DNA from: Gerris lacustris | Taxonomy: Eukaryota > Arthropoda > Insecta > Hemiptera > Gerridae | DNA length: 64,000 nt | Assembly (NCBI GenBank): GCA_951217055.1 | Contig: OX578276.1 | Location: 153,831,482 to 153,895,481 of the forward strand | Direction of reading: 5' to 3' | In this document: in pieces, positions 60,186-60,720 of the stretch | How the letters are laid out: every line of letters begins with the position of its first letter | Position numbering within the stretch: the stretch's first letter is position 1 | Position numbers and translations under genes: made by a program | The notes under the pieces: generated by a model | The model's input: only the letters and a program-made list of their open reading frames with translations | The model's database searches: none | What the model was told of the DNA's origin: nothing

Positions 60186-60264
60186 GAGAAAAAGAGATAA
60201 CGCTCGTCTCTGATAAGTCCTATATCTGATCTTCTTGATCTAGTATAGGTCCAGAGTTGGGTGG

Positions 60265-60307
60265 GCATCGTCGGGCCCCTGATGAGTCGGACGCGACGAT
60301 ACGATGC
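60265..60307 (+). ncRNA. Hammerhead ribozyme, unit 1 (one core change)
   Basis: GCATCGTC|GGGCCC-CTGATGA-GTCG-GACG-CGAC-GATA-CGATGC. The stem III halves ACGATGC and GCATCGT pair at seven positions, stem II is GTCG/CGAC with a GACG loop, and the cleavage triplet is GTC at 60270-60272. The core A14 of GAAA is T here, which normally abolishes cleavage. Stem I is GGGCCC only, too short to fold within one unit, but able to pair with GGGCCC of the next. Confidence 0.75.
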
Positions 60308-60566
60308 AGGACATAGCGTAAAGCCGAGCCAACATATTAATGACGCAATGTCTGATGTTGGAACAGTTCCTATGGGTCACGCTTGCGTGGCACATCCCTT
60401 GGTGTCTCTCACAAATTGTGTAGCCTATTGCAGTGTGCAAAAACACGGTATTACATTGCTGATGTGTTTTGCCAGCCAAGCAAGAATGGCGGTATGAGAG
60501 CACGCTCGTCTCTGATAAGTCCTATATCTGATCTTCTTGGTCTGGTATAGGTCCAGAGTTGGGTGG

Positions 60567-60609
60567 GCATTGTCGGGCCCCTGATGAGTCGGACGCGACG
60601 AAACGATGC
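60567..60609 (+). ncRNA. Hammerhead ribozyme, unit 2 (complete core)
   Basis: GCATTGTC|GGGCCC-CTGATGA-GTCG-GACG-CGAC-GAAA-CGATGC. All invariant core bases are present: CUGAUGA, GAAA, and U16.1-H17 as GUC (60572-60574). Stem II has four pairs with a GACG loop; stem III has seven pairs, one G-U. Stem I is the self-complementary GGGCCC, so a six-bp stem I forms between tandem units or two transcripts, the dimeric hammerhead arrangement known from satellites and retroelements. Confidence 0.85.
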
Positions 60610-60720
60610 AGGACATGGCGTAATGCCGAGCCAACATCTTAATGACGCAATGTCTGATGTTGGAGCAGTTCCTATGGGTCACGCTTGCGTGACACATCCC
60701 TTGGTGTCTCTCACAAATTG

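Follow-up and report, generated by a model that had tools for sequence, protein, structure and literature searches.

Animal non-LTR retrozymes carry type I hammerhead ribozymes in tandem repeats of 150–450 bp, and in their amphibian representatives dimers cleave better (PMC7229834). The hammerheads of Penelope-like elements are minimal type I motifs that lack helix III and may act as dimers (PMC7761336, PMC6155905), and the Anolis hammerhead that was studied is described as cleaving only in the presence of its protein (PMC11167929). A dimeric hammerhead formed via a palindrome has also been described for newt and for avocado sunblotch viroid (PMC3088659). Here we analyze a locus within a 64,000-nucleotide stretch of Gerris lacustris DNA (the window), at which a partial tandem repeat bears a hammerhead motif in each unit. 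Judging by its sequence, we take this locus to carry a real hammerhead skeleton in what appears to be a decaying retrozyme-like repeat. The features on which the analysis builds are:

60203..60504, plus strand: unit 1, full 302 bp (comparison of the sequence with itself at a shift of 302, and blastn)
60265..60307, plus strand: hammerhead motif of unit 1 (Rfam RF00008, 35.6 bits, E 6.9e-6 in a 751-base search)
60273..60278, plus strand: GGGCCC palindrome, candidate stem I strand of unit 1 (sequence and co-fold), with a predicted cut at 60272/60273
60286..60297, plus strand: stem II hairpin of unit 1, GTCG GACG CGAC
60420..60504, plus strand: 85-bp part of the unit that occurs once, without counterpart after unit 2 (shift-302 comparison and blastn)
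60505..60721, plus strand: unit 2, the first 217 bp of the unit, stopping at a (TA)n run
60567..60609, plus strand: hammerhead motif of unit 2, core intact (Rfam RF00008, 39.7 bits, E 4.7e-7 in the same 751-base search)
60575..60580, plus strand: GGGCCC palindrome, candidate stem I strand of unit 2 (sequence and co-fold); a cut at 60574/60575 would require the mutated core of unit 1
60588..60599, plus strand: stem II hairpin of unit 2, GTCG GACG CGAC
60721..60837, no strand assigned: (TA)n run followed by 32 T, directly after unit 2 (Tandem Repeats Finder)

The initial annotation had described two tandem 302-bp units without a protein frame. The period of 302 bp was borne out, but the array does not hold two full units; it comprises 1.72 units in 519 bp, with 60420–60504 present only once. 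Weak similarity extends unit 1 further upstream, to about 60193. The two units differ at 9 of 217 bases. GC content amounts to 49.0% in unit 1 and 51% in the unit 2 stretch, as compared to 28% and 35% in the measured flanks and 33% in the window. No further copies of the unit were found in the 64-kb window, where the best blastn match besides unit 2 spanned 15 bases. When words of at least 5 bases were compared between the tested flanks, the longest common word had 5 bases and lay away from the element edges, and no target duplication of more than 5 bases was found in the flanks compared. The AT-rich run at 60721–60837 may represent the insertion target or a later expansion. As annotated, the array lacks a protein frame: no open reading frame of at least 150 aa overlaps it, and the sole stop-to-stop frame of at least 110 aa at the array (60428–60835, minus strand) consists mostly of simple repeats.

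Several other repeats and frames lie in the window. A dispersed repeat (59849–60180) is located directly upstream of unit 1, ending near 60180; its second copy, on the minus strand at 25919–27036, is split by about 0.8 kb. Downstream, a repeat with TGTC microsatellites (61135–61733) has an inverted copy at 61918–62489 and partial copies at 57914–58265, 7063–7392 and 38143–38354. At 15871–16421, a 42-bp unit recurs in thirteen copies that are 99% alike, with several frames open on both strands. An 827-aa frame on the plus strand (43480–45960) shows a weak, below-threshold match to Transposase_21 and is perhaps a mobile element gene. On the minus strand at 8880–11487, pol pieces in separate frames correspond to an aspartyl protease, the end of a reverse transcriptase and an RNase H; from the order of these domains, we take them to be Ty3/gypsy-like.

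The search with hammerhead models gave a mixed result. RF00008 (type III) matched both units, but both motifs score below its curated gathering score of 48.5, and a whole-window Rfam search at gathering score returned only two tRNAs and neither hammerhead motif. The motif runs in the order stem III strand, GTC, GGGCCC, CTGATGA, stem II, GAAA, stem III strand, with a stem II of 4 bp closed by a GACG loop. In unit 2, the invariant core (CUGANGA, GAAA and a UH cleavage site) is complete in the form of GTC, CTGATGA and GAAA; together with stem II and a seven-pair stem III of the unit's own, one pair of which is G-U, it agrees with the initial annotation. The core of unit 1 is damaged by a T at 60300, giving GATA in place of GAAA (position 14). 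A change of A14 nearly abolishes hammerhead cleavage. In a survey of hammerhead motifs, A14 was counted in the consensus core, and hits changed at this position were disqualified (PMC3088659).

Both units also deviate from a canonical type III hammerhead in stem I. In the Rfam alignment, 7 RF00008 positions of stem I and its loop are deleted in both units, and a stem I loop inside a single copy, as in a type III hammerhead, is absent in both. The six bases GGGCCC between the cleavage site and CTGATGA are, as had been noted, palindromic and too short for a hairpin of their own; their self-closure is limited to one pair with a tetraloop, so that a stem I hairpin of the usual kind cannot be accommodated. 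Taken singly, each unit has its open end at stem III and lacks a loop I; if the motif is instead read from one unit into the next, the arrangement is that of type I, its loop measuring about 260 nt. A local GGGC/GCCC hairpin may compete with the dimer fold. A local stem I built from an upstream GGGC and GCCC was rejected as a hammerhead on inspection, as it would place a new cleavage site beside bases that are unpaired with the stem III strand. GGGCCC alone is no proof of selection for dimers, since any hairpin turns palindromic once its loop is deleted.

Upon unconstrained co-folding of 43-nt motif strands, the best structure was a symmetric double hammerhead in all three pairings tried (−36.8, −34.9 and −38.7 kcal/mol), in which stems I and III both bridge the copies, while the best folds of single motif strands were not hammerheads. 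Co-folding is blind to the state of the core, the most stable of the three pairings being that between two damaged unit 1 motifs, and the energy of the motif dimer is not unusual, with 182 of 1000 shuffles equally low. A transcript of two units accommodates the dimer pairs in proper nesting, the 5′ strand of unit 1 stem III pairing with the 3′ strand of unit 2, palindrome with palindrome, and the 3′ strand of unit 1 with the 5′ strand of unit 2. In this transcript, the dimer fold (−172.3 kcal/mol) is 5.5 kcal/mol less stable than the best fold and only 0.4 kcal/mol more stable than a local stem II plus stem III fold of unit 2 without stem I. Under an energy model without hammerhead core contacts, the inter-unit stem I pairs with a probability of 0.0017 and unit 2's own local stem III with one of 0.079; the three inter-unit helices have probabilities of 0.001–0.002. 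The folding energy of a one-unit circle is within the usual range (z −0.65; 78 of 300 shuffles fold as stably). The proposal that stem I forms between units or molecules is thus supported by the isolated motifs, which co-fold as a dimer, but not by the two-unit RNA, for which the dimer is not the best fold. The hammerhead parts seem able to assemble only where two copies meet.

With moderate confidence, we suggest that a small retrozyme-like element without coding capacity left this partial-tandem copy, now in decay; its multimers would be cut as dimers, and it would have been inserted by reverse transcription at an AT-rich site. In an RNA with at least two units, neighbors would pair via GGGCCC (stem I) and reciprocal stem III strands, so that one nested fold would give rise to two hammerhead active sites, each with the cleavage site from one unit and the core from the other. 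One site would cut the GTC of unit 1 (60272/60273) by means of the intact core of unit 2; the other would act on the GTC of unit 2 (60574/60575), relying on the damaged core of unit 1. In an intact array, multimeric RNA would in this manner be reduced to unit length and might be circularized, whereas a lone unit, linear or circular, would have no stem I partner and would presumably be spared. Mobility would depend on reverse transcription by the enzyme of another element, with insertion at an AT-rich site. From the sequence of the present copy, only the cut at 60272/60273 is expected. Unit-length RNA had been anticipated from the locus, but its own transcript is not expected to yield a 302-nt product, because unit 1 supplies the GATA core for the second cut.

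Besides the Rfam matches, the co-folding and the nested dimer pairs, such an element is supported by its size and tandem layout, which match the 150–450 bp hammerhead repeats of animals (PMC7229834), by the 49% GC of the unit against 28% and 35% in the flanks, and by the TA run at its end, in keeping with the AT-rich targets described for a Penelope-like enzyme (PMC11167929). Evidence against it is that it was found at a single locus and that no relatives were found in the collections searched (viral contigs, plasmids and phages). Two exact probes, one from the core stretch and one from elsewhere in the unit, had no matches in viral contigs, and a 15-base probe hit 59 loci without extended similarity. 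When the element was compared to 83 loci by blastn, the best of the matches listed covered 30 bases at 90%; a distant blastn search in plasmids and phages returned nothing.

The pattern GTC-N6-CTGATGAG-N10-CGAAAC occurred at 11 viral and 13 prokaryote loci, none of the 24 having a palindromic spacer or a stem II of 4 pairs. With an N4 spacer, 52 viral loci gave 56 matches, several of which are near-copies of one another; stem II had at least 4 pairs in 54 and the N4 was palindromic in 5. In 49 of the 56, a complement to the four bases preceding CTGATGA lies no more than 16 bases upstream of GTC, as a looped stem I would have it; the window has no loop of this kind. We read these matches, some of which were inspected by eye, as probable looped type III hammerheads, with this GTC inside stem I, rather than as the same motif. 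An N8 spacer gave 6 loci, none palindromic. As a separate observation, some viral contigs bear two type III-like hammerheads 309–408 bp apart on one strand (L086, 2172–2511; L090, 316–657; L109, 1681–2025; L110, 2703–3141).

The bare core pattern alone is poor proof of a hammerhead: CTGANGA followed by GAAA occurs 6 times in the window versus 2.34 expected, and 6 occurrences were reached in 4 of 100 shuffles. A relaxed descriptor (stem II of at least 4 pairs, stem III of at least 6, H17 any of A, C or T, spacer of 2–60) matched once in the window, in unit 2, and 76 times in 7284 random windows sharing the dinucleotide make-up of the window, and the resulting expectation of about 0.01 per random window, like the failure of either Rfam score to attain the curated cut-off, leaves some room for a chance likeness within an unrelated duplicated repeat that was never a ribozyme. 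What evidence there is beyond the bare pattern and the stem descriptor comes from the E-value given by Rfam and from GTC and GAAAC occurring together. Allowing up to 3 mismatches, the 35-base motif was located in unit 1 and unit 2 and nowhere else in the window, against 0 expected. The E-value of 4.7e-7, in conjunction with the GTC triplet, CTGATGA and GAAAC, argues against coincidence, as does the emergence of a hammerhead dimer from free co-folding, and we consider a chance origin very improbable. We give equally little credence to the idea that a cellular reverse transcriptase captured an infectious, viroid-like circular RNA of about 302 nt and that the locus is the resulting DNA copy. Unit size, a head-to-tail copy of more than one unit and a GC content differing from the flanks would all suit such an origin; however, the minus strand lacks a hammerhead, the fold is not unusually stable, and neither of the two exact probes was matched in viral contigs, nor was a match found in phage records.

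Greater weight attaches to a dead relic, in which an ordinary type III repeat would have lost its stem I loop and upper stem, leaving GGGCCC palindromic by construction and the array a passive duplicate without self-cutting. Stem I is indeed loopless and the unit 1 core mutated; in plants and subviral agents, stem I of type III hammerheads is described as having mostly 6 pairs and a 6–8 nt loop (PMC7936874), and 49 of the 56 viral-contig matches have the look of a looped stem I. The unremarkable dimer energy points the same way, as does the finding that the two-unit RNA has a fold more stable than the dimer. Against a relic, the loopless form is common to both units despite their 9 differences in 217 bases, unit 2 retains every core base, and the sole inter-unit difference in stem III leaves the position paired, as G-C or G-U; neither point carries much weight, as one template may have given rise to both units. 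We regard a relic as unlikely, though well worth considering. The locus might also be a terminal-repeat fragment of a Penelope-like element that carried its own hammerhead variant and lost its coding part. Such elements show partial tandems, minimal and maybe dimeric hammerheads and a preference for AT-rich targets (PMC7761336, PMC11167929), whereas the published animal hammerheads are type I motifs without helix III and stem III has 7 pairs here. Moreover, a Pfam scan covering 12 of the 27 stop-to-stop frames of at least 110 aa gave no GIY-YIG domain, and what was found of a reverse transcriptase and an RNase H sits 49 kb off, beside an aspartyl protease. A Penelope-like fragment is thus improbable, and a decaying retrozyme-like copy remains our preferred reading. 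That such copies represent an animal retroelement family with an obligately dimeric hammerhead, in which a palindromic, loopless stem I would allow multimers to be cut and monomer circles to be topologically protected, is a possibility that we raise tentatively.

Among known systems, a retrozyme-like origin would fit best, yet the hammerhead type bars membership. Like animal non-LTR retrozymes, the locus is built of non-coding units a few hundred bp long that follow each other in tandem, each with its hammerhead (302 bp, 1.72 copies). For that class, a GC content of less than 45–50% is given; unit 1 has 49.0% and the unit 2 stretch 51%. Unlike these type I elements, the locus shows type III order, a long stem III and no stem I hairpin, and the type I motif with contacts between stems I and II was not seen (PMC7229834). 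The initial annotation as retrozyme-like is therefore upheld by size, tandem layout and the lack of a frame, but not by the type of hammerhead. Plant LTR retrozymes share the type III order and a repeat-spacer-repeat layout, but are described with hammerheads spaced 600–1000 bp apart, 4-bp target duplications and LTRs of about 350 bp (PMC7761336); an assignment to them was ruled out by size, 302 bp versus 600–1000 bp.

Type III order in animals is also known from the delta-like RNAs of toad and termite and from some insect genomes, but there helix I is longer than usual and has an internal loop and loop contacts, none of which is present here (PMC7936874). In the pDo500 satellite of cave crickets, a double hammerhead between repeat copies has likewise been proposed, but a single copy folds as a hammerhead too, and the double form bridges stems I and II while stem III stays within a copy (PMC2837043). 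For the repeat-type hammerheads of Aedes aegypti and others, a palindrome was proposed to permit a dimeric hammerhead as well, located, however, in stem III and loop III rather than in stem I (PMC3088659). A description of a dimeric arrangement with a loopless stem I was not found in the open-licence literature searched. If the element is or was active, type III order would enter retrozyme-like repeats beyond the plant LTR kind, and a simple route would be suggested by which a retroelement could have its multimers cut and its circular RNA left intact. Closest in logic are the Penelope-like elements, in which, as here, a tandem retroelement carries a minimal hammerhead short of one helix in the monomer; there helix III is missing, while here it is the stem I hairpin, with a stem III of 7 pairs retained, so that the dimer would form by the opposite arm (PMC7761336, PMC6155905, PMC11167929). 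The loopless stem I dimer would thus mirror the helix III-less Penelope-like hammerheads and, if active, imply that dimer-only control of the hammerhead arose through either of two junction arms.
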